From positions 124,001 to 188,000 of the forward strand of contig NZ_JARXHY010000001.1 of NCBI RefSeq assembly GCF_031127815.1: a stretch of DNA of 64,000 nt, in the 5' to 3' direction. The notes below the pieces were generated by a model. It did no database searches, was not told the DNA's origin, and saw only the letters and a list, made by a program, of their open reading frames with translations. This document shows positions 2,315 to 64,000 of this stretch, in pieces (position 1 is the stretch's first letter; every line of letters begins with the position of its first letter). The DNA is from Pelagicoccus sp. SDUM812003. GTDB lineage: Bacteria; Verrucomicrobiota; Verrucomicrobiia; Opitutales; Opitutaceae. The translations under genes were made by a program, and so were the position numbers.

Positions 2315-2574
2315 GAGTATCCAATAGGAGAAGCACTATTGGCTTCAATATCCGTTGCTGTTCGCAAATAGAGGGGATTAGCAATTGGAGTCTATCGGAA
2401 TTGCAAATCATGTTTGGTGATAGAGGCAGTTAAAAACTGCTCCTATTAGTTTTGTTCGTCTGATTGGTTTTGTTGCACTGTAGTATTGCATTTGATGGCA
2501 ACCGTACCAATGCAGTCTTACGCTTCGAACGAAAGTCGTGTATCTGCTAGTGCAACGAGCGAAATCACTTGATG
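2315..2574. other. intergenic region between convergent genes with two hairpins
   Basis: No gene is seen. A 7-bp stem (CCAATAG at 2321-2327 with CTATTGG at 2336-2342) lies just after the enolase stop and could end its transcript. A second imperfect stem-loop at 2419-2446 is a member of the repeat family listed at 6397. Confidence 0.6.
2419..2460. repeat. REP-like repeat, copy 1
   Basis: ATAGAGGCAGTT and AACTGCTCCTAT form a 12-bp stem with two mismatches around AAA, followed by an AGTTTTGTTCGTCTGATT tail. Stem, tail and spacing align with the copy at 6397-6440, so this is a dispersed hairpin repeat rather than a single terminator. Confidence 0.5.
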
Positions 2575-4011
2575 CTAAACTGCGTCGCGCCTTTCTTCCA
2601 GGGTCGCACGTACATCTGCCATCATGTTGTGAGTAAGCGGGTACTTTATCATCAGTATGAACATCGCTGCTGCGGCGCTAGCTGGTATGAGGGCGTAGGA
2701 CCAAATCAACCTAGATAGCGTTTCGGGGCTTTGATTGCCTCCTAAACTGACGTCGAAACCGGCGATGTACTGCAATACGATACCGCCTAAGGCCATTGCG
2801 GCAGTCATGGAGAGTTTGGCAATCCAGTTTCCTACCGCTGCGATCAATCCCTCGCGACGACGACCAAATTTGTATTCATCCCAATCTGCAACATCGGCAC
2901 GCATGGAGAGAATGAGTATCCAGAACCCCGTTTCTCCCATTGATAGAAAGGGTTTTGTTATGAAAGTTAATAAAGGCTTGCCTGGGATGTAGGTGACGAG
3001 AATGCCGATCTTGCAGATAAAGATGGTAGCGATACAAGCGAGGATGAGATGTTTCTTATCGAACTTTTTAGAGAGTGCTTGAATTAGGAAAGCTGCTACA
3101 AACGAAAATACGACCCGAAGCGTTCCGTCGTATCCAAAAAGAAATGCTCCTTCTTTTAAATCTCCCCCATAGATATAGTAGGTTTTAACGTGGACGTCGA
3201 GAGCTTGGGTTGCGGATATCGCTAGAAGGTACGTTCCAATTGCCGCGAACACGAAAATGAGTGGTCGGTTTTTACTCAGGGACCTGAGCGACTTGAGTGG
3301 ATTCTCTTTCTTTTGAGTCTGAGCAATAGTGCTAAACTTCTCGACACAAAAGAGGGCCGGAAGAACTCCAGCAGCAGCGATGGCTATGCCAACTCCAATA
3401 CTAACTATCCGCGTGCCTTGTAGTTCGTCTCGAAAGACCGACAAGGTTGTAAGTGCGAGTAGCCATGGGACCGTGAAACTGGAGATTTGCTGGATGTATG
3501 ACATCCACGAATACACATTGGTACGCTCGCGATAGTTAGGCGTAAGCTCCATCCCCAAAGACTGATAAGGAACCGAGAATATTGAGTAGAACGTGAAGTA
3601 GATCAGAAGTGCTCCGACTAGGTAAATAAAAGTCAGAGTCTGACTCCACGCTACGGGAGCGAGCCAAAGGAAAGGGAAAAAGGCTCCAGTTAAAAGTGCA
3701 CCCCAAAATACAAATGGTTTGCGACGACCTTTGGGACTTTTAGAATTGTCAGATAACGATCCAATTAGGGGGTCGGTGAATGCGTCCCATAAGCGAGCAA
3801 TCATCAATGCGTACCCAATAAGGCTGGGCGAAAGTTGCAGGATGATATTGAAGATGGGCATCGTGAACGAGTTGAGGCTGAAAGTCGCCAGATGGTCAGA
3901 CACGATGCCGAATCCGAAGGAGATCTTTTGCGGGATCGGTACGCGGTCCTTCTCCGGTATTTCTACCGAGTCGCTTTGTTCCTGCATCGGCGCTTCTTTC
4001 AATTCACTCAT
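2575..4011 (-). CDS. GPH-family sugar:cation symporter (MFS)
   Basis: A 478-residue integral membrane protein with about twelve hydrophobic segments. The glycoside-pentoside-hexuronide (GPH/MelB) signature is clear: ARLWDAFTDPLIGSLSDNS then SPKGRRKPFVFWGALL between helices 2 and 3, and a second DEYKFGRRREG-type loop in the C-terminal half. GPH carriers import oligosaccharides or hexuronides with Na+ or H+. In this setting the likely cargo is neoagaro- or porphyran-derived oligosaccharide or galactose, which is inference from neighbours. It is the last gene of the minus-strand run GH50, FG-GAP, GH3, MFS. A perfect TTGTATACAA palindrome sits 67 bases before the start, so it probably has its own regulated promoter. 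The N-terminal about 25 residues are a hydrophilic extension. Confidence 0.85.
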   Translation of the reverse strand: MSELKEAPMQEQSDSVEIPEKDRVPIPQKISFGFGIVSDHLATFSLNSFTMPIFNIILQLSPSLIGYALMIARLWDAFTDPLIGSLSDNSKSPKGRRKPFVFWGALLTGAFFPFLWLAPVAWSQTLTFIYLVGALLIYFTFYSIFSVPYQSLGMELTPNYRERTNVYSWMSYIQQISSFTVPWLLALTTLSVFRDELQGTRIVSIGVGIAIAAAGVLPALFCVEKFSTIAQTQKKENPLKSLRSLSKNRPLIFVFAAIGTYLLAISATQALDVHVKTYYIYGGDLKEGAFLFGYDGTLRVVFSFVAAFLIQALSKKFDKKHLILACIATIFICKIGILVTYIPGKPLLTFITKPFLSMGETGFWILILSMRADVADWDEYKFGRRREGLIAAVGNWIAKLSMTAAMALGGIVLQYIAGFDVSLGGNQSPETLSRLIWSYALIPASAAAAMFILMIKYPLTHNMMADVRATLEERRDAV

Positions 4012-6574: not shown

Positions 6575-8467
6575 CTAACGACCCAAATGGCCTACGGCAA
6601 CGATCTGATTGGCTGTTATGTTTTGCAGCGTTTGAGTTGAACCATCGCGCCAGCGGATGGTGATTTCTTCAACCGAAGTCGTTTCCCCGAGACCAAAATG
6701 TATGAAGTTGTGGACACTTTGGTAGAATGCTGTACCTCGTGAGCCTACGCGTTGAAAATGCTTTCCATTTTGGGATGAAAAAGTGACCTCTGCTCCAATC
6801 GGATCGATTCCGGTATTCGAATACTGGATGTGGAGTGTCAGGTAATTGCCTGTATCTTCAGTGGTGTTACGGTAGAGACGCCAGCGGCCGTTATCATCAT
6901 CGCCGCTAAGAATATCTACTCGCCCATCTAGATCGAAATCAAGAGTGCTGCCCATGTCACCGTGGCTCTTTTCGGGCAGCTTGTTCGCCCCATGGTCGGT
7001 GAAGGCTTCGAATCGGCAATCTCCTTTGTTGAGGATAAGAAGGTCGGGAACTCGGTAGACCAGTTCGCCGAATCGGTAAACGAAGAAGTCTTCCAATCCG
7101 TCGTTGTTGAAGTCACCGTGAGTGACGCCCCAGTTGTTTTCGCGGGACTCGATTGGCAAACGCCCCGAGATTTCAGTGAAACGGTTGCCATCGTTGCGGA
7201 GCAACACGTCGTCCTCGCCTAGATCCTGCGGCACGAAATAGGGATCGATTTTGGATACGCCCAATATGGACGCTCGTATGTCCCAGGCTAAATTATCGTT
7301 CAGGTTCCACTCCAAACGCCAAATCCCGTCGCCAAGGTAGCCTAGAAACCATCCATCTTCACTAGTTGAATCGGGGAAGCCGAGTGCATCCTTGGAGTCA
7401 ATGGATATCGTTTCAGTGGGCGTTTTCGTGAGGGTTTTGTTCGAGCCGAGGAAGACCGGCAAAACGACGTCGCGACCGCGAGGCCAGTGGTAGAAATCGC
7501 ACAGTTCGATTTGTTCGCCTGCTGTGAATTCGAGACCGTCGTGACTCTTGTTGCCTTCGTCTCGCAGGTCGAGGCGACCTGTTTGGGGATCGAAGGAAAT
7601 CGCATCGTTGCCCGTGCGGTAGTGAGTCTTGCCGCGGGCCAAGTAGTAGTCCGGATCCCCATCGTTGTCTATGTCGGCTTCCGCGACCGCGTTGATCAAA
7701 TCGCCCCTGAAGAACGCAGGGGGCAACCATTTCTTTGTTACGTCTTCGAATCCGAAGGCGTTGTCGCCTTGCCAGAATGCAATGGGGGAAAAAACGATTA
7801 GGTCGGGGATGTGGTCGCCATTGAAATCGGTTAGCAAAACCCGTTCCGCGTCTAGCTGCTCGAAAGCTGGACTGCTGCGGTAGACGAATGTCCCATCGCC
7901 TTGGTTTTCGAAGAGCAGGTTTCGCGGTCCGGTTTCGTTTACGATTTGCGCTGCATTGATCTGCAGCAGGTCCAAGTCGCCGTCGGAATCAAGATCGACC
8001 CAACGCGGAGAGCGGCCGCGAGCACCCATGCCAGAGATGCCCGCGGCGTCGGTGACGTCAACAAAGTTTCCATCGTCGTTTCGTAGCAGATGAGGGGCTT
8101 TCGGATTCTGCCCATTGCCGCCGCCGACTGCTACGACAAGATCCATGTCACCATCGTTGTCGTAATCGCCGGGAGCGATTCCATGGGCGTCGCACTTGGG
8201 CAGTGGCGAGGGCGCTTCCTTGAATGTATTGTCTTCCTGTCCCCAGAAAATCTGAATGGGAGTGCGATCGTGGTTACAAAGGACCAGATCGTAGCGCCCG
8301 TCGTTGTTTAGGTCCGCTACAGTAGGACCGCTGTATTTCCAGCTTGGCTCGCTGTTTAGCCCGACTTGATCCGTGACCTCTTTGAAGGTGACGGGGGAGG
8401 CGGTTGTTTCGATGAGGGCGAAGGCAGGGAAGACGGCAACAGCGAAGCGAGCGATGTTCATGGGCAT
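6575..8467 (-). CDS. FG-GAP/VCBS repeat protein with ASPIC/UnbV domain, secreted
   Basis: A 630-residue exported protein (short signal ending near ALIETTASP). Repeated Asp-rich calcium-binding loops of the FG-GAP/VCBS type occur throughout: DLNNDGRYDLVL, DYDNDGDMDLVV, DLDSDGDLDLL, DFNGDHIPDLI, DIDNDGDPDYYLARG, DFNNDGLEDFFVYR, DFDLDGRVDIL, which predict a beta-propeller. The last about 85 residues (GAEVTFSSQNGKHFQRVGS, then HFGLG and EITIRWRDGS.Q) are the ASPIC/UnbV module typical of CRTAC1-like proteins. No enzyme motif is visible; a binding or cell-surface role is plausible. It follows the GH50 gene by 24 bases, so the two are surely co-transcribed. The start could be either of the two in-frame ATGs (MPMNIARF). 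Confidence 0.85.
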   Translation of the reverse strand: MPMNIARFAVAVFPAFALIETTASPVTFKEVTDQVGLNSEPSWKYSGPTVADLNNDGRYDLVLCNHDRTPIQIFWGQEDNTFKEAPSPLPKCDAHGIAPGDYDNDGDMDLVVAVGGGNGQNPKAPHLLRNDDGNFVDVTDAAGISGMGARGRSPRWVDLDSDGDLDLLQINAAQIVNETGPRNLLFENQGDGTFVYRSSPAFEQLDAERVLLTDFNGDHIPDLIVFSPIAFWQGDNAFGFEDVTKKWLPPAFFRGDLINAVAEADIDNDGDPDYYLARGKTHYRTGNDAISFDPQTGRLDLRDEGNKSHDGLEFTAGEQIELCDFYHWPRGRDVVLPVFLGSNKTLTKTPTETISIDSKDALGFPDSTSEDGWFLGYLGDGIWRLEWNLNDNLAWDIRASILGVSKIDPYFVPQDLGEDDVLLRNDGNRFTEISGRLPIESRENNWGVTHGDFNNDGLEDFFVYRFGELVYRVPDLLILNKGDCRFEAFTDHGANKLPEKSHGDMGSTLDFDLDGRVDILSGDDDNGRWRLYRNTTEDTGNYLTLHIQYSNTGIDPIGAEVTFSSQNGKHFQRVGSRGTAFYQSVHNFIHFGLGETTSVEEITIRWRDGSTQTLQNITANQIVAVGHLGR

Positions 8468-50521: not shown

Positions 50522-51238
50522 TCAATAACTCCACTCCCGGTGGCTTACGGGGATTCGGTTCAAAACCTTACGGTGTTCCTTCCACTGGGGAACGTAGAGG
50601 TTCATCATCGATTTGAAGCGGTCGTTGTGGGTCGGCTCGATCAAGTGGACGATCTCGTGTGCAACGATGTACTCGAGGCATTCCTTCGGCTTCTTGGCGA
50701 GCTCGAGGTTTACGATGATCTTTCTGTTCTGCGGAATGCAGGAACCCCACTTGGTTTTCATTTTGCGAACCTGCCAATCGGATACCGTGGCACCGATCAC
50801 CTTTTCCCACCTGACGATGATCGATGGCAACGCGTCGGCCAGTTGCTTTCGGTACCAATCTTCTATGACCTGCTGACGCTTTCTCTCGCTCGCCCCCGGC
50901 CGTATCGTCAGCGCAATTTTGCGGTGCTTGAGTTCGACCTTCGGCTTCGCCTTTTTTTCAGCAAGCGACAGCAAGTAGCGCTTCCCCCAGAGGTAGTGGC
51001 TCTCGCGTTCGAGAAACTCTCGTTTCGGCTCTCGTTTTTGGGCGATCTGTTTGCGCTGCTGCTTCCGGATCCAAGGGAGCTTGTTGGCCGCAAACGCCCG
51101 GATCGTCTCCAGATTCATCTCTTCCGGAGCCGCGATGCGCACACGCCCCGTTGGCGGGTAGACGGAGAGATGGACGTTCTTGATTCGTTTGCGAACCAAG
51201 TCCACCGAAAGGTCATTCAACTTCAACTGCTCGACCAT
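50522..51238 (-). CDS. YgjP/DUF45-type zinc metallopeptidase linked to type I R-M
   Basis: A 238-residue protein with the SprT/YgjP-like zincin core: KTKWGSCIPQNRKIIVNLEL, then YIVAHEIVHLIEPTHNDRF, where HEIVH supplies two zinc ligands and the later His a third. An N-terminal beta-rich part (KNVHLSVYPPTGRVRIAAP) is usual for DUF45. Such genes often accompany type I restriction subunits, with unproved function. Its ATG shares one base with the hsdR stop (TGATG), so it is translated together with hsdR. Confidence 0.85.
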   Translation of the reverse strand: MVEQLKLNDLSVDLVRKRIKNVHLSVYPPTGRVRIAAPEEMNLETIRAFAANKLPWIRKQQRKQIAQKREPKREFLERESHYLWGKRYLLSLAEKKAKPKVELKHRKIALTIRPGASERKRQQVIEDWYRKQLADALPSIIVRWEKVIGATVSDWQVRKMKTKWGSCIPQNRKIIVNLELAKKPKECLEYIVAHEIVHLIEPTHNDRFKSMMNLYVPQWKEHRKVLNRIPVSHREWSY

Positions 51239-54200
51239 CAGTATTCGCTTTGCTGCTTCAGGATGGGGAAGATCTTCTCAACCTCGTCTTCGTTTTGCAG
51301 AATCGCGAACAAGGCGGCCTTGATGGTCCGCTCTTTCGCTTCGTGTCCTCTCCAGCCGTGCGGGCTGACTTGCTTGATCGTCTTGTCGATAACCAGTGCC
51401 AGGTCGGCCGTCGGATCGTTCGAGTCCGCTTCAGCGTACCGGCCTGCGGCTTCCGCTGCAGTATCCGACTGGAGATTGTTGTAGATCGCTCTTTGCCCGG
51501 CGGTCCTAACTTTCGAAGGTGTCGAGTCATCTGCTCCTCGGCCGACATCTCTGGCTAGATTGGCGATGCGGCGCAGGTACTCTTCGTACTCCATGGCCCT
51601 GCGCCTACGGGCGGCGATGATCTCGTCGAGCAGGGCGGACATGCGTTCGTAGTACGCGGGGTCGTTCAGGTGCTCGCGAATGATGGTGCTGCGAACATTG
51701 TTCTCGATCGTTTCAGCGACCGACTCCGGGTTGTTCCGCATCTCTTCGGGCAAACTGTTAACCGCTTCGTCGATTCCGGACGAAACGATGAGATCGACCA
51801 GCGGCGTTTCGTCGAAGGAAGAAATTTTTCGGGATTCGTTGGCCTCGATGTAGGTATCGATCAAATGCCGCATGTCGGCCTCGTAGGCTTTCAGGTCGAT
51901 CGTCTCTCCGCTGGCTCGACGGATGATTTCTCGAAGCTTCAGGTAGCGGTCGATCTCGCCCTTGATGCGCTCCGCCTCTCCTGCGTTGAAGCCGGCAGCG
52001 TCCAGCTCATCCGAAACGCTGGCGAAGGCACGCACCAGGGAAGCTACGCTGCGGTAAAGAGCGACCCGTCTCGGCTCCCTTTCTTCCAGGTCGGAGGCGA
52101 TCTCCGTGTTGCCGCAAAAATACTGGATATGCTCCAGCTCGCCGCGCGGACTTCTGACGGGTTCGCATAAGGCGGCGAGCGATTCCAGAGCGTCCTCTAG
52201 CCTTTGCCTTCCGCGCTCCAGTCGATCTTGCAGTAGGATCTCGGAGTTGCCTTCGGAGCACTCGTCCTTGTCCAATTCGGAGGTGTAAACCTGGAGGGCT
52301 CCGGTCTGCTGATCGTTGACTAGGTTCTGGAAGAGGTCCTTGTAGTCGACGATGTATCCAAAATCCTTGTCTTCCCCATCAAGACGGTTGGTACGGCAAA
52401 TCGCCTGGAAGAGACCGTGGTCGCGCATCGACTTGTCGATGTAGAGGTAGGTGCAGCTGGGCGCGTCGAAGCCGGTAAGCAGCTTGTCCACGACGATGAG
52501 CAGCTTCATGCGAGCAGGCTCCTCTACGAACAATTGCTTGGAGCGATCCTCGTAGGCTTCCGTCTTGGTCATGCTGCCTTGCGGCTTCACGTCCTTCAGT
52601 AGCTTTTGATAGAGGTGGTAAACGAACTCCTTTTCGGTTTTCGTGTTCTCTCCGGTATCCTCCTGGTTGATATCGCTGACCTGTGGATTGTAGGAGGTGA
52701 TAACGGCGCACTTCCCCTTGAATGGGGTGTTCTGGAAGAGCTCGAAGTACTTGCAGGCCTCGTGGATGCTGGAGGCCACGAGGATCGCGTTGCCGCGTTG
52801 GTTGCTCAGGCGAGGCTTCACATTGAAGTCGAAGATAATGTCGCTCACCACCCGGTCCATGCGGGACCGAGAGCTTAGCACCTTCTGCTTCGTTCCCCAT
52901 TGCTCGCGCAGGGCGGCGCGCTGCCAATCGTTCAGGCCGCGCGTTTTCGAGTCGAACCAAGCGTCCACCTTTTCGGGCGACCCAAGGCGTTGATCTATGT
53001 CTCGAGCCTCGTATACCAGGTCTAGCACCACCTCGTCCTCGACGGCTTCTCCGAAGCGATAAGTGTGTATGTACCGTTCGAATACCTCCAGCGTGGTCTG
53101 CTTGTCGCGACGCAGCAGGGGAGTGCCTGTAAATCCGATGAAGATCGCTTGCGGGATAAGGGCTTTCATCGTCCGGTGCAGCTTTCCGCTTTGCGTACGA
53201 TGGCACTCGTCGACGAAGACGTAGAGCTCGCCCACCGTTGCGCTGGGCTGCGACTCCAGTTCCCTGATGAAGCGGTCAAAGTCGTCCACCCCCTTTTTGC
53301 CGAACTTGTGAACGAGCGAACAGAGCAGGCGCGGTTTCGCTTGCGAGAGCTGGCTCATCAGGTCGCGGCCGCTTCGCGTTCGGTGGATCTTTTCGCCCGT
53401 GCTGGAGAAGACGCTTTCGATCTGCTTGTCCAGTTCGTCGCGGTCGGTGACCACTACGACACGCGCCTCGGGGTTGTTCTCCAATATCCACTTGGCGAGC
53501 AGCACCATGACGATGCTCTTTCCGCTGCCTTGCGTATGCCAGATGATGCCGCCTTGCTTTCGGGCGATGCGTTCCTGGGCGGCTTTGATCCCGAAGTACT
53601 GGTGGTGCCGCGGGACCTTCTTGATTCCGCCGTCGAAGAGCACGAAGTCGTACACGATTTCCAAGAAACGTTTCTTGTCGCAGAGCTTCAGCAGGTACTT
53701 GTCCAGCTTGAGGCGAGCATTGTCGTCCTCGTCTTCCTTCCATTTCAGGTAGTACTTCTCTGGAGTTCCAACCGTTCCGTAGCGCAGCCCCTCCGAGTCG
53801 TTGCCAGCCAACACCAGCTGCATCGTCGCGAAGAAGTCCCCTATGAATTCCGGCTTCTGGTTGTTGATGTTCTGCCGTATCCCGTTTCCTATCGACTTGC
53901 GGCTGTTTTTCAGTTCCAGCACGCCGAGCGCGATCCCGTTCACGTAGAGAACCACGTCTGGTCGCTTCTCATGCTGGCCATGCACGGTCACTTCCTCGGC
54001 GATGCCGAAGTCGTTGGCCTCGGGAGTTTCCCAATTGATGAGCTGGATGCTCTCCGTGTTTTCGCCAGCCTCAGCCTTCACCGGCACGCCGTAGCGCAGG
54101 AGTGAATACACGGCCTTATTGTTTTCGTAGAGCGTGCGGCTGCGATTGCTCGCCTCGACCTTTAGCGAGTGGATGGCCCGGCTGATCTGCTCGTTGCGAT

Positions 54201-54375
54201 AGCCCGCTCTCGTAAGGTAGTCTCCCAAGACTGCTTCTTCGACATTGCTGTTGCCAGCCCGGTCCTGCCAATGGCCGAGGTAGCGGTATTTCAGTTCGTC
54301 GACGAACAAGGCGACGACTCGATTCTGGGTAACGCGTTCCGCTTGGCCAATTGTCATGAGGGGAGGGGGATTCAA
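51238..54375 (-). CDS. hsdR: type I restriction enzyme, R subunit
   Basis: A 1045-residue HsdR. The N-terminal PD-(D/E)XK nuclease core is visible as RPDVVLYVNGIALGVLELKNS. The SF2 motor follows: IIWHTQGSGKSIVMVLLAKW (Walker A), VFVDECHRTQSGK (motif II), IGFTGTPLL (motif III), NAILVASSIHEAC and KLLIVVDKLLTGFDAP (motifs IV-V), AICRTNRLDGEDK (motif VI). The C-terminal helical region contacts the methylase core. It cleaves unmodified DNA after ATP-driven translocation. It lies about 6 kb downstream of hsdS on the same strand, with defence cargo between them, and is coupled to the metallopeptidase gene. No frameshift seen. Confidence 0.95.
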   Translation of the reverse strand: MNPPPLMTIGQAERVTQNRVVALFVDELKYRYLGHWQDRAGNSNVEEAVLGDYLTRAGYRNEQISRAIHSLKVEASNRSRTLYENNKAVYSLLRYGVPVKAEAGENTESIQLINWETPEANDFGIAEEVTVHGQHEKRPDVVLYVNGIALGVLELKNSRKSIGNGIRQNINNQKPEFIGDFFATMQLVLAGNDSEGLRYGTVGTPEKYYLKWKEDEDDNARLKLDKYLLKLCDKKRFLEIVYDFVLFDGGIKKVPRHHQYFGIKAAQERIARKQGGIIWHTQGSGKSIVMVLLAKWILENNPEARVVVVTDRDELDKQIESVFSSTGEKIHRTRSGRDLMSQLSQAKPRLLCSLVHKFGKKGVDDFDRFIRELESQPSATVGELYVFVDECHRTQSGKLHRTMKALIPQAIFIGFTGTPLLRRDKQTTLEVFERYIHTYRFGEAVEDEVVLDLVYEARDIDQRLGSPEKVDAWFDSKTRGLNDWQRAALREQWGTKQKVLSSRSRMDRVVSDIIFDFNVKPRLSNQRGNAILVASSIHEACKYFELFQNTPFKGKCAVITSYNPQVSDINQEDTGENTKTEKEFVYHLYQKLLKDVKPQGSMTKTEAYEDRSKQLFVEEPARMKLLIVVDKLLTGFDAPSCTYLYIDKSMRDHGLFQAICRTNRLDGEDKDFGYIVDYKDLFQNLVNDQQTGALQVYTSELDKDECSEGNSEILLQDRLERGRQRLEDALESLAALCEPVRSPRGELEHIQYFCGNTEIASDLEEREPRRVALYRSVASLVRAFASVSDELDAAGFNAGEAERIKGEIDRYLKLREIIRRASGETIDLKAYEADMRHLIDTYIEANESRKISSFDETPLVDLIVSSGIDEAVNSLPEEMRNNPESVAETIENNVRSTIIREHLNDPAYYERMSALLDEIIAARRRRAMEYEEYLRRIANLARDVGRGADDSTPSKVRTAGQRAIYNNLQSDTAAEAAGRYAEADSNDPTADLALVIDKTIKQVSPHGWRGHEAKERTIKAALFAILQNEDEVEKIFPILKQQSEY

Positions 54376-54397: not shown

Positions 54398-55132
54398 CTA
54401 GCTATCAGTCGCTTTATCGAGTACGTAGCGTTTGAACCATTGTGGAATGGTATCCGATTTGTATTCGAGTGTTTCTCCGTCCGTGATTTCAGCCAGCCAG
54501 GACTTTTCTACATTGTCGCTAGAGTTGTCGAAAACGAATGCTCGATTCGAAACCTGGATAGCGTCCCATAGCAAATCGAGAGAGCGGTAGTATCGCGATA
54601 CCGTTTTGTCTGGAGGCACTGAATGACCGCCTTTTCGCACCCGGTTCTCGACCCGTGAGCAGTTGATGTCCGGGTCCTCCGTGGCCACGAAGTACAAATA
54701 GGTTCGATAGCCAGCCGACTGAGCTTCACGAAGCAGCTCAACCTTGCTCGGATGTGACATCACCGTTTCAAAGGTAAAACTCCTCCTCGCTTTCAAAAGC
54801 TCGTGCCGGACGAATTCTGCGAGGACTGCCGCAAGGTAAGGGGAGGTCGACTCCCTTGGAAGGGATAAACTGTTCTCGCCAATCAGAAGCCCAATTGACT
54901 TCAAGTCGGCAAGGCGGTCTGAGATTTCCAGGAACTGGTTCAGCTGGACGCCCAATCCCTTTAGCCCGAAGGCAGACAAATCGAATTTTCCCGTTTGTTG
55001 AAGTCCCTGTGCAATTTCGTCCGCGTTGATGTACACTCCATAGAGTTCGGGGCCGATGACCCCCTTTAGCGTGCTTTTCCCTGAACCGTTCGGACCGGCG
55101 AACATCCGGACGCGAGGCGTGCCTGCAGTCAT
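54398..55132 (-). CDS. zeta-toxin-like P-loop kinase
   Basis: A 244-residue P-loop protein: Walker A FAGPNGSGKSTLKGV, YINADEIAQGL (substrate-acid site of zeta toxins), FTFETVMSHPSK, then RVENRVRKGGHSVPP and a helical end. Zeta toxins phosphorylate UDP-N-acetyl sugars or other small molecules; many chromosomal relatives are uncharacterised kinases. The small gene upstream overlaps it by ATGA (55129-55132), an arrangement typical of antitoxin-toxin pairs. It ends 22 bases before hsdR and may be in the same transcript. Confidence 0.78.
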   Translation of the reverse strand: MTAGTPRVRMFAGPNGSGKSTLKGVIGPELYGVYINADEIAQGLQQTGKFDLSAFGLKGLGVQLNQFLEISDRLADLKSIGLLIGENSLSLPRESTSPYLAAVLAEFVRHELLKARRSFTFETVMSHPSKVELLREAQSAGYRTYLYFVATEDPDINCSRVENRVRKGGHSVPPDKTVSRYYRSLDLLWDAIQVSNRAFVFDNSSDNVEKSWLAEITDGETLEYKSDTIPQWFKRYVLDKATDS

Positions 55133-56160: not shown

Positions 56161-56679
56161 TCAAGGCGTGAAACGATACTGCGCCCCGAGTCTGTGAAGC
56201 ATGGAGAACGTGTCTTCGTAGCGGACGGAAAATTCGTCGCAGACATCGGGAAGCTTGATTTCCTTCTTGGATTCGGGGGCGGGTTGCTCGTTGGTCACGA
56301 CGGTCGTTCCATACACACGACAGTAAGCGACCAGCCATCCGTCTGCCCCACTGGCGAACTTCGCCTTTGCCGCGTCGGTGAAACGGGTGTGACGCTGCGA
56401 CCACATCATGATCTCACGGAAAGCGTCGACGACGTCGCTCACACCACAGGTATGAAAGAACTCGTTGGGTACCGAGTTGCTGACCCATTTGACGAGATCG
56501 TCATCGGGACTACCATTGAGAAGCTCCTGCTTCACGCGATCGATGCTGTGCAGACTGCCGCTCGAATACCCATGAAGGAGACTTTCCCAGAAACCTGGAC
56601 AAATCGGAAACGCGTAATAGCGGTTCTTGGCCGTAATCAGCACGTCCGAATCGATCAGGTAGCTGAGGTTATTGCTCAT
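56161..56679 (-). CDS. DUF4411 PIN-like nuclease (toxin-type)
   Basis: A 172-residue protein of the DUF4411 branch of the PIN fold: YLIDSDVLITAKNRYYAF (first acidic residue), FWESLLHGYSSGSL, RVKQELLNGSP, SGADGWLVAYCRVYGTTVVTNE with the remaining acidic residues. PIN proteins are Mg-dependent ribonucleases. The gene overlaps the upstream Xre-ImmA gene by ATGA, the usual layout of this two-gene toxin-antitoxin-like module, often seen inside type I R-M loci. Confidence 0.82.
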   Translation of the reverse strand: MSNNLSYLIDSDVLITAKNRYYAFPICPGFWESLLHGYSSGSLHSIDRVKQELLNGSPDDDLVKWVSNSVPNEFFHTCGVSDVVDAFREIMMWSQRHTRFTDAAKAKFASGADGWLVAYCRVYGTTVVTNEQPAPESKKEIKLPDVCDEFSVRYEDTFSMLHRLGAQYRFTP

Positions 56680-57833
56680 GGCAGGGGAACTCCAATCTTC
56701 CGTGCGTACTTCTGAAAAGCCCCGCCATTCAGGCCAGACAGATCGTAGGCTTCCTTGAAACCGATGCGTCCTTCCTTGGCAGCCCGAATGACTTGCGAGG
56801 CGAACAACCGACCGACTCGCGTATTCTGGTTGTTGTAAAAATCCCCGCCCCCAGTACGAGCAGCCTTCATTCGACGCTCCTGTTGGGTGTAGAAGCGATA
56901 GAAACTAAAGAACTCCTCACGGTCGACGAGTCGGAGGTCCATTGCCCGACGGCCGACTACAACCGGACTCACTTTGAAACGCCCTGCCAACTTCTCGAAT
57001 GGGGTATCGCTATTCGCGACACTCGGCCATGCCGCTCGCATCTCCGCCTCAGGAACAAGAAATTCCGCTGCTGCCTGGTCGCAGAAACGCTCCACCGCAT
57101 CGCCATCCGGTTGAAGCCCCTTGAATCCCGACAGGCCTTCGCCCGCTTCGCCAAGCCAAAGATGAGCTAACTCGTGAGCGAGAGTAAACATCTGGGCGGA
57201 CTTCGCGTCGGAGCCGTTGACGAAGACAAGCGGGGCATGCGGGTCGCTCAAAGCGAAGCCTCGAAACTCCTTCACGTCCAACTTGCGACGCGTGTTGTTC
57301 CCTACCACCCCATTGATCACCGCCATTACGCCCAAGGCTTCGATTGCATTGCGAAGCTCTCCGACGGCAGCGGTCCAAGTTGGCACCCTGTGAGCCCAGC
57401 CATCGTCAAGCCCAACCACGCGACGCATTTCTCGACCGATCGCTTCCGGATTGTCGGAAAGGTCGGCCGACCCGACAAAAGACAGAACATCCGCTTCCGC
57501 TTCGATTCGCTCCTCCCGCAACCAAGACTGTCGACGCTGCATGGACTGTATCGTTTCCATGAGGTCGGGACTGATCCCTTGGGGACGACGGCTTTCCAGT
57601 GTACGGAAGTCAGCAAAGGGCAAGGACACTTCCGGCGGCTCCGGCAAATAGAGGTACCCAAATGGAATCCGAGTCGCCTTCGCAAAGGCTTCGAGCTGCT
57701 TCATCGTAGGCTGCTCCTGCTCCGCCTCCCACTCCGCCAAGTGCGGAAACTTCGAAACCAGGTCAGACACAGCCAATCCCGCGCGCTCACGCGCCCAGCG
57801 AAGGACTGTTGGACTGACTGCGATGCGGTTCAT
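56676..57833 (-). CDS. Xre-family HTH + ImmA/IrrE metallopeptidase
   Basis: A 385-residue two-domain protein. The first about 70 residues are an Xre-type HTH (TVLRWARERAGLAVSDLVSKF, PTMKQLEAFAKATRIPFGYL). The ImmA/IrrE peptidase follows with zinc motif MFTLAHELAHLWLG near residue 220 and FCDQAAAEFLVPEAEM. Such proteins cleave repressors or act as antitoxins. It is coupled to the DUF4411 PIN gene, so it probably controls it. Confidence 0.85.
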   Translation of the reverse strand: MNRIAVSPTVLRWARERAGLAVSDLVSKFPHLAEWEAEQEQPTMKQLEAFAKATRIPFGYLYLPEPPEVSLPFADFRTLESRRPQGISPDLMETIQSMQRRQSWLREERIEAEADVLSFVGSADLSDNPEAIGREMRRVVGLDDGWAHRVPTWTAAVGELRNAIEALGVMAVINGVVGNNTRRKLDVKEFRGFALSDPHAPLVFVNGSDAKSAQMFTLAHELAHLWLGEAGEGLSGFKGLQPDGDAVERFCDQAAAEFLVPEAEMRAAWPSVANSDTPFEKLAGRFKVSPVVVGRRAMDLRLVDREEFFSFYRFYTQQERRMKAARTGGGDFYNNQNTRVGRLFASQVIRAAKEGRIGFKEAYDLSGLNGGAFQKYARKIGVPLP

Positions 57834-57904: not shown

Positions 57905-58837
57905 CTAGGAGTCCTTCAGCAGCCGAAAGCTGACTTGGTACCGGTAAAAGTCTATGTTGGTCGCAGCCCGAAGGGCACGGCGGAGTTTTAGGTCGTTTTC
58001 GAGGGCGATGATCACCCCGCGTACCGTTTGATGGGGCTCAGCGAGTTCTTCCATGGCGTAACCCATGTAGCGTTGTATCTGTCCTACGACTACATCGCTG
58101 GCCCGGCCGCGTTTGAGTTCGATAATCAGGATCTCCTTCTGATCCTTGCTGACCGCGAGGATGTCGATCGGTCCCGTATCGCTTGGGCACTGCTGCCCTT
58201 TTACTTCGCCGTCTTCGGAATAGATGTCGTAGCTCTTACCAAGATCGGTGTACTGCCAGTTGGCGACGAGAAAGTCTTCGAGGTGCTTCTCCAGAGCGAA
58301 CACAGATGGGTCTTCAACGGTCTCATCGGAAACAATTATGTCAGGCCTCACTGCTTGGCCACCAATGAGTTTCTCCTGTTCTTCCGCGTAGCCGGTGATG
58401 TCGCAGCAGGTGCCGGTTGAGTTGGTAGAGCGTTGCAGGGCTTCTCTCATGTCTGCCCGATCGAAGAGGTCGCTGTACCAAGTGACGGACCTTCGATGAG
58501 GGAGGATATCGTCGGGAGCGTAATAATAGGGTCAGGTGATTTCGCCCGCTCGGTAACGTCCTGAACCATTTGGGGTGATGATCACGTCGCCTTCCTTGAG
58601 GCCTTTGCTCATTGTCCAGGTGAAGCCGCAGGCCAATCCCGCCGCGATGGCACTCTTGCCCGGATGTTTCTCCAAGTAGATCGGCCTAAACTCCTTGTTG
58701 AATTCACGCCAATTTTCAGGGAGCCGTCCCGTAAGGTCCTCGCGGATACCGTAGTCGACTCCGATAAATCCTTCCTTGTAGCAGCGATCCGCATACACGC
58801 TTTGCTGCCCGGCCATGACTCTGTTGTAGGATTTCAT
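57905..58837 (-). pseudogene. NucS-like endonuclease interrupted by one in-frame TGA
   Basis: Two pieces in one frame read as a 310-residue protein. The N-terminal piece (58837-58535) has RCYKEGFIGVDYGIREDLTG and AAGLACGFTWTMSKGLKEGD, and ends GRYRAGEIT. A TGA at 58532-58534 follows, and the frame continues as PYYYAPDDILPHRRSVTWYS without any start codon until the ATG at 58450. The C-terminal piece holds ALEKHLEDFLVANW and the PD-(D/E)XK core GPIDILAVS...ILIIELKRG. One TGA for GGA would restore GEITGPYYYAPD. It directly abuts the RexB-like gene. Could be two polypeptides, a mutation, or a sequence error. Confidence 0.65.
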
Positions 58838-59356
58838 CTAGCTGCGATTACTTTCTGGAGACTTCTCAGCCTCAATCTTCTTGAACCATTGATGGTGAGC
58901 CAAAACGAGCTGTACAGTAAGGTATACAACCAGAGCAATTGTCGTGAAACCAAGGCCGACACAGATCGCCGTCGACCAGTTAGTCTGAACAAAGCCCAAC
59001 GTCATCTGGGAAAGTGATGTCGTCAGAGCCAAAATCACGTTAGTAGATAATGCGATTCCTACTCTTTCCAAGCTACCATAGTAGCGTACCTCTTTTCCTT
59101 TGTCTCTCAACTGCCTTATCTTGCGAGCATGGTCGGTACTCTCGTATGCCTCTTTCAGTCTCTGAATGATTCCCGTCTGAAGAGTAAGTAGAAAGCTCCC
59201 CAAGGTCAGGAAACCAGTAAACATTGGAACTCTGGCATTCGTGAAATATCCAGAAACCCAATGGTCCGCACACCCAACGTAGCGCTCTAGCAAAACATAG
59301 AACCCGACAGTCGAGATCAACACGGACGAAACTAGAACTGCGAAGAACTTTTTCAT
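58838..59356 (-). CDS. four-helix membrane protein, RexB-like in topology
   Basis: A 172-residue integral membrane protein with about four transmembrane segments: FAVLVSSVLISTVGFYVLL, MFTGFLTLGSFLLTLQTGII, VGIALSTNVILALTTSLSQM and AICVGLGFTTIALVVYLTVQ. A charged cytoplasmic loop (RLKEAYESTDHARKIRQLRD) separates the hairpins and a charged tail ends it. Size and hairpin-loop-hairpin layout resemble lambda RexB (144 residues), a membrane channel of abortive infection. It follows the soluble partner with one base between. Function is inferred. Confidence 0.6.
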   Translation of the reverse strand: MKKFFAVLVSSVLISTVGFYVLLERYVGCADHWVSGYFTNARVPMFTGFLTLGSFLLTLQTGIIQRLKEAYESTDHARKIRQLRDKGKEVRYYGSLERVGIALSTNVILALTTSLSQMTLGFVQTNWSTAICVGLGFTTIALVVYLTVQLVLAHHQWFKKIEAEKSPESNRS

Positions 59357-59357
59357 C

Positions 59358-60299
59358 TCATGCGTGTAGCAATAGATTCAATACGCTCTCACCCGAAGCC
59401 ATGGCAGCCAGTTTGCTGACAACCTCAGATCCGCCAATCGATTTGGGCCAATCATCCAAATCGAGAACGAGGTCTTTGATTGATTCGTCGTAGTCGAATT
59501 CATTGAAGACCAAAGGATTCTTGTCCTTGAAAAACTGTCTTCGATTCTTGTTTGAATCATATCCAGATACGATTACCTCAGCGACCTCTTGAGCATTTGA
59601 AAGCTCAACTGCCGAATCCGCTAGCTCCTCGATATCGGAATCAGGGGGGAATGTAAGCTTAATGATTTCGTTAGATGCCTTTTCTACGATTCCGCGAAGG
59701 AATGTCTCCTTCGTTTCCAAAGTCGCCAGACGTAACTCGAAGCTGGATACCCGTTTCAATCCCTTTACGAGGTCTTTCAAATCAGTATCATTACAAAGCT
59801 GTATGAGCGATAAGGTCCCTTTGTAGTCCTGTGCTATCTCTTTGGCTTCTTTTTTGGTTTTCCCGGATACTGCAGCCTCCTTTTGGAGCCTGGCTTCTGC
59901 CGCAAAAAGCTTCCGGCATATCACCGCAAATGAAGTAATGCTAGTACCATGATAGTGATGGGCAAGCAAACCACTCCCGGTTTCTGGGTGGGCAATGAAA
60001 TACGTTAACTCAACAAGCTTTTCATTCTCTGCCAGAATTTCCGCCGTAAGAGTTGTCTTCCCATCCGACTCCGTCAGCTTCGTGAACGCCTTCGAATCGC
60101 GCACCTTGAGGATCATACCGGCCCACCATTCCATCGGTCCGTCCTTACCTTCAAAAGTAACTTTGGTCGCACCATATTGATACAGTTTACCTAGTTTCGC
60201 TCCAGCGTTGGCCGACATGAAACCGTAAAGATCGGTGATGTTCATCGCACGGGGTACAATATCGTTCTTGAATTTGAATCCGTAGACTTTGGTTTTCAT
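59358..60299 (-). CDS. cytosolic partner protein, RexA-like in layout
   Basis: A 313-residue soluble protein without signal peptide. The N-terminal third is beta-rich (KVYGFKFKNDIVPRAMNITD, GKLYQYGATKVTFEGKDGPM), followed by LVELTYFIAHPETGSGLLAHH and a mixed helical C-terminus (LRLATLETKETFLRGIVEKA, then a DYDESIKDLVLDLDDWP segment). I do not recognise a named family. Its place before a four-helix membrane protein, and its size and predicted order, resemble lambda RexA, the sensor half of a two-gene abortive-infection system. It follows hsdS by 16 bases in the same operon. Confidence 0.55.
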   Translation of the reverse strand: MKTKVYGFKFKNDIVPRAMNITDLYGFMSANAGAKLGKLYQYGATKVTFEGKDGPMEWWAGMILKVRDSKAFTKLTESDGKTTLTAEILAENEKLVELTYFIAHPETGSGLLAHHYHGTSITSFAVICRKLFAAEARLQKEAAVSGKTKKEAKEIAQDYKGTLSLIQLCNDTDLKDLVKGLKRVSSFELRLATLETKETFLRGIVEKASNEIIKLTFPPDSDIEELADSAVELSNAQEVAEVIVSGYDSNKNRRQFFKDKNPLVFNEFDYDESIKDLVLDLDDWPKSIGGSEVVSKLAAMASGESVLNLLLHA

Positions 60300-60315
60300 G
60301 TCGTTCGGGGGTGCT

Positions 60316-61527
60316 CTAGAGGAGTCGGGTTTTGCCGGTTAGGAGTTCTGGCATCATGCCTTGCTTGAGTTGGCGGGCTTTGGAGAGCTTGGCTTCGAGG
60401 GCGGCGATTTCCTCGTCCATGTCGCTGAGCGTTTCGGCGATGGCGGTTTGCTCGGCTTTGCTGCCAGGAATCGTGACCTCGATCTTGTTGAGTTCGGAGC
60501 GGTTCAGTTTTGCACGAGTGCCGCTAGCGATGAATGGCATTAGGTTTTTGTGGACTAGCGAATAGAAAAGGAATCCTTGGTCAGTATCCTGTTTGGCCTT
60601 GAGTATGTGAGCGTGATTGTTCACCCAGCACTTTCCGGTCATACGATAAGCAATCGGACGGTACATGTACTCATCGAAGTAACCACCATCTTCGGCCATC
60701 AAGATAACATCGTCATCGACAACGTAGTCATTGATGTAGTCCAAAACGCCATTCGCTCCGCAATATGGTATGCTGCCCTTTCTTTTTTGACGTTCAGCAT
60801 CGTTGAGCGGGACGCGGAGATTGTCCAAGCAGTCGGCTACCTCTTCCAAAACTGCCTTGCCCCAATCACCGGAAAAGCCGGGGAGGCGTTTTTGGCCGGT
60901 GAGGAGTTGCTGCATGGCGCCTTGTTTGATTTGGCGTTTTTTGGCGATGAGTTGCTCCAGGGATTCAATGAGGGCATCCGCATCGCTTAAGGCTTCGGCG
61001 ATGGCTTCTTGTTCGGCTTTGGTGGGTGGCCACGCGAGAGGCAATCGTTCAAGTCGCGAGCCTCCAAGGTGTGCGATCGAAGTCGTTTGAAGGGCGATTT
61101 TTGCAAACACACCTGTCTGCTGACAGTATCGAAATAGGTACGACGCGTATTTTGCCGATGCGTCAGCGAAAGACCGGAAGCGGAGAAGTGCATTTTGAAT
61201 AGCACATGGTTCTGGGTATTCGCCTTGGTAGATGGAACAACGCCCAACGAGCTCTAAACTTTGCCCCTCGTTCAAGAGGACGTCGCCAGATCGCACCTGA
61301 AATTGTGTAAACTGCTCATCGGTCATCGGCATCGTGAGCACATCATCAGTGACAATACGACCATCGAAGACATTCTTAGTTCTGAGGTAAGGGCGCTGTC
61401 TGCCGGGAGCATTTACTGCCAATGCTTTCCCAGTGACAACTTTTCCTTTTTGGCTGACTGGAACGACATCCCAATCCTCCGGAATCTCACCAACCTCCGT
61501 TTGCTTGTATCCATTTTTCACTGCCAT
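60316..61527 (-). CDS. hsdS: type I restriction-modification, specificity subunit
   Basis: A 403-residue HsdS with the duplicated target-recognition layout. Each recognition domain is followed by a conserved coiled-coil spacer: EAIAEALSDADALIESLEQL and KKRQIKQGAMQQLLTGQKRL in the middle, and TAIAETLSDMDEEIAALEAK with KARQLKQGMMPELLTGKTRL at the end. The first half starts YKQTEVGEIPEDWDVV. It sets the DNA sequence recognised by HsdM/HsdR. The ATG at 61527 overlaps the last codons of hsdM by 10 bases. Target sequence cannot be read. Confidence 0.92.
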   Translation of the reverse strand: MAVKNGYKQTEVGEIPEDWDVVPVSQKGKVVTGKALAVNAPGRQRPYLRTKNVFDGRIVTDDVLTMPMTDEQFTQFQVRSGDVLLNEGQSLELVGRCSIYQGEYPEPCAIQNALLRFRSFADASAKYASYLFRYCQQTGVFAKIALQTTSIAHLGGSRLERLPLAWPPTKAEQEAIAEALSDADALIESLEQLIAKKRQIKQGAMQQLLTGQKRLPGFSGDWGKAVLEEVADCLDNLRVPLNDAERQKRKGSIPYCGANGVLDYINDYVVDDDVILMAEDGGYFDEYMYRPIAYRMTGKCWVNNHAHILKAKQDTDQGFLFYSLVHKNLMPFIASGTRAKLNRSELNKIEVTIPGSKAEQTAIAETLSDMDEEIAALEAKLSKARQLKQGMMPELLTGKTRLL

Positions 61528-64000
61528 GCGAAGCCCATCCTTTCTAGGTGCTGGCTGACTTTGGACTCTAGGTCGGTGACGCGGGTGGTGAGTTCGGGGA
61601 GCGGCTGGGCGTAGCGTTCGGCCAGGTCTTTGACGCGTTGGGTGAGGCTCTGGCTGATACGGTCGGTTTCGCCGTGGATGGCGGTCGCGAGCGTGGCGAG
61701 CCACTTGTCGTCGACGACGAGGGTCTTGATGTCTTCGGGAGTGAGCTTGGGGTAGTGAGCGAGCGCTAAAGCATCGAGTTCGGACTCGGCTTGCTTGATT
61801 TGCTTTTTGAGGGCGGCTTCTGCTTCGGAGGATTCGAGGTAGGCGAGCAAGGCGTCGACTTCGTCGACGGAGGTCTCGGAGCCGTAGGAGGCGGATTCTT
61901 CCGCGGCGAGGAGGTCAGGTTGGGTGGTGGATGCGCTTCTGCGCCCGCCGGGACGTCGGGCGCCACCTTTTATTCCGAGCTCTTTGAGGCGGGCGGTGAC
62001 GTTGGCTTTGTTGACTTTGTCTAGGTCGGAGAAGGCGCCGTCGTCGCCGCTTTGTTCTTCTTCCAGCTCTTTGAGGCGGGCGGTGGCGGCTTCGAGCTGG
62101 GACTGGAGGGCTTCGAGCTCTGCTTGCTCGGCGGCGAAGTAGCGGGCGACGATGAGCGGCTTGGGCACCAGCTCGCAGGTCCAGCCTTTGTCCACGGTCT
62201 GGCCCTTCTTTTTGCCTTTTGTAATTTCTTCTAGGATACGCTCGGGCTTGGCAATCCAGCCGTCTTGCGTGATTAGGTAGCAGTCGTCCTGCATCGTCTC
62301 CTCCCAGAAATCCATGAGGTGCTGGTAGACGTCGTAGCGATCGATGAGCGGCGAATCGGCGTAGTGCTCGAGCAAGTCTTCCGAGAGCTCGTGAATGAGG
62401 GTCTTGGGATGGAAGCCTAGATCGAGTTGCTTGAGCTGAGCGGAGGCTTTCTTTCGCCAGGCAGCGAAGTGTTTTTCGAGGGAGGCAATGAAGGATGCGA
62501 ATTCCTTGTGGGATTGGATGGTGGGTTTTATTTGGTCGGGGGTGACGGTGAGGTCGGAGTAGGCGCGTTGCGGCTGTCTCGGCGAGACAGCCCTACCTTT
62601 GAAAAGCGAGCTTTTCAGGCTGGGGCAGACTTGCCAGTAGCGGTCGAGGGCGTCGATGTCGCGCTGGGGGATGCCGCCGCGGAGGTGGGCTTCGATGTCT
62701 TGGATGTCCTCCTTGGCTTGGCTGTCGATGTAGCGCGGGAGGTTGAGATTGAAGTCGTTTTTCTCGATCTCCTCGAAGGGGACTTCGCGGGCGTAGCCGG
62801 GCAGCGCGATCCGTTTCTTGAATACGTCCACGATCTTGTGAATGTCCATGCTGCGGAGGCGGTTCTTGTTGCCGTCCTTCATGAAGCCGGAGGAGGCGTC
62901 GATCATGAAGATGGGGCGACGCTCCTGGGCATGCTCCTTGTCGAGTACGATGATGCAGGCGGGAATGCCCGTGCCGTAAAAGAGGTTGGCTGGGAGTCCG
63001 ATGATACCGGCGAGGAGGCCGCGCTTGACCAGCTCACGCCGGATGGCGGCTTCGGCATTGCCGCGAAAGAGCACGCCGTGCGGGAGAATGCAGGCTCCCT
63101 TGGCGGTGGACTTCATGGAGCGGACGATGTGCAGAAGGTAGGCGTAGTCGCCTTGCTTGGCGGGCGGGACGCCGAAGCCGTCGAAGCGATGGAAGTTGCG
63201 CGAGGCTTGGTCGACGCTGTCGCTGTCGGCCGGTACGCCGATCTCGTCGGGATGGAGGCCGCTGGTCCAGCGCTTGTCGCTGAAGGGTGGATTGGCGACC
63301 ACGAAATCGAAAGTCTGCAGGGCGTCGCCTTGGAGGAACTTGGGATTGGCGAGGGTATTGCCCGGACGCACGGTGGCGGTTGGCCGGTCGTGCAGGATCA
63401 TGTTCATGCGAGCCAACTGGGCGGTGGTGGAATCCTTTTCCTGTCCGTAGATGGTGATGTCGGAATCCGCCTCGCCCGCGACCTTGAGCAGCAAGGAGCC
63501 CGAGCCGCAAGTCGGGTCGTAGACGGTGGTGGCGTTGGTCGTCTGGGCTTCGTGGATACCTAGGATGGCGGCCATGACGCGGCTGACTTCGGCCGGGGTG
63601 TAGAACTGGCCCTTGGACTTGCCGCTCTCGGTGGCGAAGTGCCGCATGAGGTACTCGTAGGCGTCGCCCAGAATGTCGTCGCCTTCGGCCCGGTTCCTCG
63701 AGAAATCGAGCTCCTTCTTCTGGAAGATGGAGATGAGGTTGGTGAGGCGGTCGACGATCTCTTTGCCCGAGCCGAGCTTGTTGGCGTCGTTGAAATCGGG
63801 GAAGTCGGCTTGGGAGAGCTGCTCGTTGGCGGCGGCCAGCGGGGCGATGATGCGCTTGTTGATCTGGTCGCCGATGTCGGTCTTGCCCTTGAGCTTGACC
63901 ATGTCGGCGAAGCTGGCACCGTCCGGGATGACGATGGGAGCGTAAGGCTGACCAGCGTACTTGTCGGAGATGTATTTTAGGAAGAGGAGGACGAGAACGT
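61518..64000 (-). CDS. hsdM: type I restriction-modification, methylase subunit (5' end outside window)
   Basis: At least 827 codons; the frame runs off the window edge through LFLKYISDKYAGQPYAPIVI, so the true start lies beyond 64000. N6-adenine methylase motifs: KGQFYTPAEVSRVMA, YDPTCGSGSLLLK (motif I) and FDFVVANPPFSDKRW (motif IV NPPF). The C-terminal half is longer than in short HsdM proteins and has a coiled coil (AEQAELEALQSQLEAATARL) and a terminal helical region that should join HsdS. It protects host DNA and, with HsdS, directs cleavage. Confidence 0.93.
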   Translation of the reverse strand, partial: VLVLLFLKYISDKYAGQPYAPIVIPDGASFADMVKLKGKTDIGDQINKRIIAPLAAANEQLSQADFPDFNDANKLGSGKEIVDRLTNLISIFQKKELDFSRNRAEGDDILGDAYEYLMRHFATESGKSKGQFYTPAEVSRVMAAILGIHEAQTTNATTVYDPTCGSGSLLLKVAGEADSDITIYGQEKDSTTAQLARMNMILHDRPTATVRPGNTLANPKFLQGDALQTFDFVVANPPFSDKRWTSGLHPDEIGVPADSDSVDQASRNFHRFDGFGVPPAKQGDYAYLLHIVRSMKSTAKGACILPHGVLFRGNAEAAIRRELVKRGLLAGIIGLPANLFYGTGIPACIIVLDKEHAQERRPIFMIDASSGFMKDGNKNRLRSMDIHKIVDVFKKRIALPGYAREVPFEEIEKNDFNLNLPRYIDSQAKEDIQDIEAHLRGGIPQRDIDALDRYWQVCPSLKSSLFKGRAVSPRQPQRAYSDLTVTPDQIKPTIQSHKEFASFIASLEKHFAAWRKKASAQLKQLDLGFHPKTLIHELSEDLLEHYADSPLIDRYDVYQHLMDFWEETMQDDCYLITQDGWIAKPERILEEITKGKKKGQTVDKGWTCELVPKPLIVARYFAAEQAELEALQSQLEAATARLKELEEEQSGDDGAFSDLDKVNKANVTARLKELGIKGGARRPGGRRSASTTQPDLLAAEESASYGSETSVDEVDALLAYLESSEAEAALKKQIKQAESELDALALAHYPKLTPEDIKTLVVDDKWLATLATAIHGETDRISQSLTQRVKDLAERYAQPLPELTTRVTDLESKVSQHLERMGFAWQ

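Follow-up and report, generated by a model that had tools for sequence, protein, structure and literature searches.

A candidate RexAB-type gene pair, divergent in sequence, in a type I restriction operon of Pelagicoccus and its relatives in other bacteria and phages

Directly behind the specificity gene of its type I restriction locus, Pelagicoccus sp. SDUM812003 carries two adjacent genes, one for a soluble protein (A) and one for a four-helix membrane protein (B), which we read as a divergent RexAB-type abortive-infection module captured by type I restriction operons, with a probability of roughly 0.6. This reading draws on the RexA/RdgC fold predicted for A, the topology of B, the adjacency of the two genes, and the contexts in which such pairs occur, which include type I operons, other defence genes, and lambdoid prophages. 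RexAB was among the first abortive-infection systems to be described, and to our knowledge it is still not known how it is activated. According to the available part of one report, only five RexAB-like systems had been described as of 2026 (PMC12894663). The A-B family would add many more, from several phyla and from 218 of 5,426 complete E. coli genomes, and its placement in restriction operons suggests a directly testable trigger, namely inhibited restriction. The copies in E. coli can be used in ordinary laboratory strains.

The window referred to below is the whole stretch of 64,000 nucleotides that was analysed. The features of the locus, in the order in which they are read, are as follows.

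61518..63902, minus strand: hsdM, type I methyltransferase (N6_Mtase E 2.8e-96; PADLOC MTase_I)
60316..61527, minus strand: hsdS, type I specificity subunit (Methylase_S E 8.7e-25; PADLOC Specificity_I E 3.9e-92)
59358..60299, minus strand: gene A, soluble protein with a predicted RexA fold, 313 aa (open frame, family alignment, AlphaFold, Foldseek, phrog_2802)
58838..59356, minus strand: gene B, four-helix membrane protein and putative effector, 172 aa (open frame, family alignment, model)
57905..58837, minus strand: PDC-S02 candidate with a NucS-like C-terminal part, abutting B (PADLOC halves; NucS_C E 3.1e-7)
51238..54375, minus strand: hsdR, type I restriction subunit (SWI2_SNF2 E 3.3e-70, HSDR_N E 5.4e-37; PADLOC REase_I)
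50522..51238, minus strand: YgjP-like metallopeptidase, directly after hsdR (PF01863 E 1.5e-58)

The preliminary description of this DNA had placed the pair directly after hsdS, with products of 313 and 172 aa one base apart, and the open frames agree with it, as do the Pfam matches of all three type I genes, hsdM, hsdS and hsdR. The order is hsdM, hsdS, a 16-base gap, A, a 1-base gap (59357), and B, with the hsdS frame ending at 60316 and A starting 16 bases downstream. The hsdS frame is open to 61704 and was listed as 60316-61704; its true start is probably the ATG at 61527, and hsdM may begin further upstream than the listed 63902. About 4.5 kb separate the pair from hsdR downstream. A nuclease-like gene, a putative toxin-antitoxin pair, and a Zeta-like gene lie between B and hsdR, so the window pair follows the hsdM-hsdS part of the locus. 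Judging by the spacing of the frames, A and B are likely to be co-transcribed with hsdS. A promoter scan of 58400-60500 gave a single site, on the strand opposite to the genes (mean of shuffles, 1.8), and none on the coding strand; terminator-like sites on the coding strand number six in the same interval (shuffles, 2.2), and every one of them lies within A or B. The pair has a GC content of 46% and a third-position GC of 0.51-0.53, compared with third-position values of 0.56 for hsdS, 0.81 for hsdM and 0.76 for hsdR. Low GC was considered as proof that the pair was inserted late and was given up as such; since hsdS is also low at third positions, base composition argues only weakly for a later insertion.

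Neither A nor B had been assigned to a named family, and searches agree, as no fitting model was found for either in Pfam, NCBIfam or PADLOC, and none of the 25 A and 30 B family members matched any of the 5027 PADLOC models at E <= 0.01. A does match phrog_2802, a phage family without assigned function (E 1.9e-15). An initial scan of genome contigs with the window A protein gave no match; tblastn gave matches to A in two E. coli phage records but in no plasmid, whereas for B it found nothing in the same phage and plasmid collections. Homologous pairs were found in genome G010 (L002), a Lentisphaeria genome (L003, L096 and L139 denote the same place in it), genome G353 (L006), and two E. coli phages. 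When viral contigs were searched with a degenerate DNA pattern based on B's membrane motif, 52 stretches were picked out, 40 of which have an upstream frame of at least 195 aa adjoining the membrane gene, while 12 have none by the rule of the script, several of these being short or cut. A second, longer pattern was run on one genome per species (84,980 species) and returned 14 loci, in Nitrosomonadales, Methylococcaceae, Betaproteobacteria, Yersinia, Pantoea, Xenorhabdus, Halomonas, a Bathymodiolus symbiont, Pyrinomonadaceae, Flavobacteriaceae, Bacteroides, Geobacter, Corallococcus, and Lentisphaeria. Thirteen of them were compared further; the B-motif locus of Yersinia similis (L093) was left out because it has no upstream frame of at least 180 aa.

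These 13 loci, together with the window, G010, G353, G1005, and one E. coli genome, make up 18 genomic loci, and in all 18 A is followed by B on one strand, the two genes overlapping or lying at most 19 bases apart. A is incomplete in two of the 18, being cut by the contig end in L141 and represented by a frame of only 196 aa in L140. Conserved co-occurrence, which had been proposed as a test of the pair, is thus found throughout the loci compared. For twelve of the 18 only B had been used in the search, which makes the A beside it an independent result. Between two versions of the pair from E. coli, dN and dS are 0.153 and 1.75 for A and 0.124 and 1.43 for B, giving a dN/dS of about 0.09 for both, and the pair is under purifying selection. 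The homologous adjacent pairs and this low ratio show that the pair is more than two chance open frames.

By species the family is rare. It was found in 4 of 387 genomes of the phylum of the window and in 2 of 372 of its order (own genome included in both counts), and in 2 of 398 genomes of the phylum of G428 (seed included). In E. coli, a near copy or a 76% variant is present in 218 of 5,426 complete genomes and is chromosomal in each, and all 30 copies listed from these 218 genomes are annotated as hypothetical. In the E. coli cases viewed, the pair is part of an insert adjoining the antiterminator gene Q of a lambdoid phage or prophage and is oriented against Q, lying between a lysis-side methylase and Q. 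Examples adjoining Q in lambdoid prophages are L153 (5001-6462) and L087 (4001-5462), and a further lambdoid pair is present at L008 (2854-4315).

The kinship with RexA had been guessed from size and topology, and the predicted structure of A bears out this guess. The AlphaFold model (25 homologues aligned) has a mean pLDDT of 81.9, and in a Foldseek comparison with 350,542 PDB chains its best match was lambda RexA (8twq_B, from entry 8TWQ; E 2.5e-6, prob 1.00), followed by E. coli RdgC (2owl_B, E 6.6e-5), with the kinetochore protein CENP-N at rank 6 (6eqt_A, E 6.2e-3). We take CENP-N to correspond to CHL4. RdgC and the kinetochore proteins IML3/CHL4 are reported to be the structural relatives of RexA (PMC11077077), so the match list of A resembles that of RexA itself. 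The global TM score of A and lambda RexA is low, at 0.29-0.31 with an rmsd of 13.8, in Foldseek's whole-chain superposition. RexA is described as having a closed crystal form, with a large domain rearrangement predicted (PMC11077077), and a hinge motion of this kind could explain the low global score. On the strength of the model, A is predicted to have a two-domain fold like that of RexA and RdgC. The family alignment of A contains a single invariant column (n = 25). A is acidic (pI 5.7) whereas lambda RexA is basic (pI 8.6), which argues mildly against nonspecific DNA binding by A. The A profile also gave weak sequence matches to 14-3-3 and other PDB entries (best E 0.008), and these were set aside, as 14-3-3 proteins are all-helical and the A model has strands there.

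Sequence comparison gives a different picture. None of the 25 A and 30 B members matches Pfam RexA (PF15969) or RexB (PF15968) at E <= 0.1; as a positive control, lambda RexA and RexB match their own models at 1e-97 and 8.5e-92. When A was compared with lambda RexA, 59 of 200 shuffled profiles did equally well, and when B was compared with lambda RexB 173 of 200 did, both true scores being below that of the reversed profile. Against the Sbash-type proteins, decoys did as well in 139 of 200 cases for RexA and in 10 of 200 for RexB, so that only the last comparison stands out slightly. The same test applied to lambda and Sbash, both of which are called Rex, also fails (decoys as good in 42 of 100 cases for RexA and 71 of 100 for RexB), and the test therefore has little power. 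As far as profiles can tell, sequence would neither prove nor disprove a kinship of A-B with Rex. The resemblance to RexA and RexB that was first suggested thus appears to hold for the predicted fold of A and for the architecture of the pair and not for sequence, where Pfam matches are absent and profile comparisons with the lambda proteins are at noise level; for the RexB half the structural support is weak. We regard the pair as a variant of the RexAB kind that lies outside the Pfam RexA and RexB families. Kiwa (KwaA/KwaB) was the first idea that size and topology brought up and was dropped for want of any match. Kiwa should be represented in PADLOC or the PDB; neither A nor B has a PADLOC or Pfam match, and no entry described as Kiwa is among the best 50 PDB matches.

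The model of B (mean pLDDT 89.7) consists of four long helices and one short one, and the four helices, charged loop, and charged tail that had been described from the sequence are seen in the model and in the residue counts. The loop, a conserved feature at residues 64-95, contains 9 K/R and 5 D/E and the tail is likewise charged. K/R residues number 2 in the first six positions, 9 in 64-95 and 4 in the tail, with none in 26-40 and 120-126, a distribution that would place the central loop and the two ends in the cytoplasm. Four residues, F46, G48, F55, and L56, are invariant in all 30 members of the family alignment. Neither the PDB nor a viral structure library gave a Foldseek match to the model at E <= 0.001. 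Among the non-significant viral matches, an unnamed 204-aa protein ranked first (prob 0.97), and a 165-aa protein of Mycobacterium phage Sbash ranked fourth (prob 0.92, TM 0.46/0.47, E 0.28). Sbash gp31, which is the membrane component of a Rex-like system that other workers have tested, is of the same length. Of the best 50 viral matches none is labelled lambda RexB, but several are nameless, and the library may lack it. When the B family profile was aligned with the Sbash, CarolAnn, and Sejanus proteins, the alignment extended over 104 columns and put R70 and D73 of Sbash opposite R66 and E69 of B. Alanine changes of these two Sbash residues are reported to abolish defence (PMC6426596). All 30 family members have E or D at position 69 of B; at position 66, 16 have N, 12 have K, one has R and one has Q.

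Among known systems, lambda RexA/RexB shares with A-B a soluble RexA-fold protein followed by a four-helix membrane protein, in the same order and of similar size (279/144 aa against 313/172 aa), and part of the A-B family is likewise phage-borne. In contrast, the lambda proteins have no detectable sequence similarity to A and B, and the lambda rex genes are found behind the cI repressor in the immunity region, whereas A-B lies beside type I or other defence genes or beside Q. The actinophage pairs Sbash gp30/gp31 and CarolAnn gp44/gp43 are also two overlapping genes with a four-helix membrane partner (165 and 178 aa), and their central loops begin with R-V-K-D where the B family mostly has [NK]-[LM]-[KR]-[ED]; their A-type proteins, however, are longer (372 and 370 aa) and have no profile similarity to A. 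In Pseudomonas putida, PP_5643/PP_5644 (RexABpp) is described as RexA-like by fold and HHpred with four predicted membrane helices in its partner, and as having been tested as a defence system (PMC12894663). It differs in being located in a prophage, and its likeness to A-B is drawn from the published description. RdgC, the second-best fold match of A, is a recombination-associated protein, and we know of no four-helix membrane partner for it.

The contexts of the pair were compared in 17 genomic loci, that is, the 18 above minus the one from the E. coli collection; of the genes around the loci other than the window, ten each were scanned by Pfam and PADLOC. Type I genes stand beside the pair in 3 of the 17, the window, L139, and L144, so that the search for other type I loci carrying the pair yielded two further genomes. 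In the Lentisphaeria locus L139, hsdM-hsdS-A-B-hsdR are consecutive, with a gap of 1 base and then overlaps of 1 and 4 bases, the last of these between B and hsdR. In L144, a Flavobacteriaceae contig of only 3,771 bases without hsdM on it, the stop codon of B directly abuts the start of hsdR, and a gene for a 272-aa protein (2144-2959, minus strand) without Pfam or PADLOC match separates hsdS from A. Other defence genes are near A-B at three more loci: L134 has a convergent ResIII/Mod pair, L138 has a C5 methylase and a dCTPase-like defence gene, and L145 has a methylase and a DrmB-like gene. In 11 of the 17, no type I gene or other defence neighbour was identified among the neighbours scanned. 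By chance, 0.05 loci would be expected within two genes of hsdS, which gives a rough P of about 1.4e-5 for 3 of 17, or about 1e-3 for 2 of 16 when the window that prompted the search is left out. These estimates use hsdS counts tallied by hand and an assumed one gene per 1,000 bases, and clustering of defence genes would raise the chance expectation. In a tree of both proteins, the three type-I-linked pairs are on different branches, next to unlinked pairs; L139 and L144 are joined to their neighbours with support of only 61 and 58, respectively, and the trees of the single genes disagree in detail. A search of titles and abstracts in a mostly open-access literature, preprints being outside its scope, found no RexAB-like pair in a restriction operon among the papers listed. 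In L087, which carries the E. coli variant, HsdM and HsdS genes are nearby in the prophage on the other strand, and this locus was not counted as type-I-linked.

If the pair is a RexAB-type module, A, probably as a dimer clamping DNA, would sense phage DNA or DNA-protein intermediates; RexA-like proteins are reported to bind DNA nonspecifically and to form dimers (PMC11077077). A would then activate B through the central cytoplasmic loop, and B would open or damage the inner membrane, stopping growth and aborting the infection. For lambda, Sbash, CarolAnn, and P. putida it is the membrane partner that is described as the effector (PMC12894663). In a restriction operon, the pair would perhaps serve as a backup behind cleavage of phage DNA. 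A gene for a suicide device in such a place is prrC, which lies between hsdS and hsdR. In the available description, the type I operon of EcoprrI has this abortive-infection gene embedded in it, and the enzyme complex sequesters the PrrC protein, which is released on T4 infection (PMC3874165). With this precedent a restriction operon is an apt home for a suicide device. The embedding of A-B varies, lying between hsdS and hsdR in L139, before hsdR with hsdS one gene upstream in L144, and after hsdS in the window. PrrC itself differs in being a tRNA anticodon nuclease, and neither A nor B matches a nuclease model.

The precedent also allows for a closer parallel, in which the type I enzyme silences the pair, a phage anti-restriction protein frees it, and the cell dies after restriction has failed. 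The tight junctions of B with hsdR in L139 (a 4-base overlap within hsdM-hsdS-A-B-hsdR) and in L144 (stop against start) would suit such a guard, as would EcoprrI and the scatter of the three linked pairs over the tree. We nevertheless consider it rather unlikely, as 14 of the 17 genomic loci and the E. coli prophage copies viewed have no type I genes adjoining the pair, and in the window hsdR is 4.5 kb away. Since pairs without adjacent type I genes exist, the family as a whole does not require a type I partner in cis. In type I operons the enzyme may control A-B, or the pair may simply profit from being transcribed together with the type I genes. A composite of the two ideas is possible but doubtful: A-B in type I operons would be a membrane-disrupting guard of the RexAB type, a membrane counterpart of PrrC that fires when the enzyme is inhibited or overwhelmed, and the related copies, present in about 4% of complete E. 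coli genomes, would act on their own as exclusion genes.

Alternatively, A could be the antiviral effector and B could only sequester it at the membrane, as has been reported for the Rex-like genes of phage Butters, where the roles are the reverse of those in other such pairs (PMC7542560, PMC12894663). This is quite improbable for A-B, as conservation is sharper in B, with its four residues invariant in 30 of 30, than in A, with one column among 25, and in the four other systems named above the effector role is reported for the membrane protein (PMC12894663). It is possible to imagine instead that the pair modulates the restriction enzyme or, like RdgC, DNA recombination, with no abortive infection involved. 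The rank of RdgC as second-best fold match of A and the several copies that adjoin DNA methylases fit this idea, but no four-helix membrane partner of RdgC is known to us and some prophage copies lack type I genes, and we judge it very improbable. That the Rex resemblance is a convergence of folds, and that the pair does something unrelated, such as transport or regulation, is hardly credible. The families are indeed unconnected by sequence profiles, but lambda and Sbash fail the same weak test, and both halves, their order, their overlap, and the phage or defence context agree with Rex systems. We keep to the RexAB-type reading as the preferred one.

Several neighbours of the pair deserve a brief description, of which the PDC-S02 candidate and the YgjP-like gene lie outside the core A-B pair. 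The two halves of the PDC-S02 candidate match positions 1-101 and 130-307 of the same 308-position PADLOC models, and its frame, otherwise open, is interrupted by a single in-frame TGA at codon 102 (58532-58534), which may reflect a pseudogene, a sequencing error, or read-through. Within the restriction locus, at 56161-57833 on the minus strand, two overlapping genes encode a DUF4411 protein and an IrrE-type peptidase protein, the latter also matching an HTH model weakly (Pfam), and the two look like a toxin-antitoxin pair. A Zeta_toxin-like P-loop protein (Pfam) is encoded at 54398-55132 on the minus strand, just ahead of hsdR. The YgjP-like metallopeptidase that follows hsdR is a recurrent partner in two type I loci, as it is also present in the Lentisphaeria locus L139, at 7638-8345 on the plus strand (E 3.7e-62).
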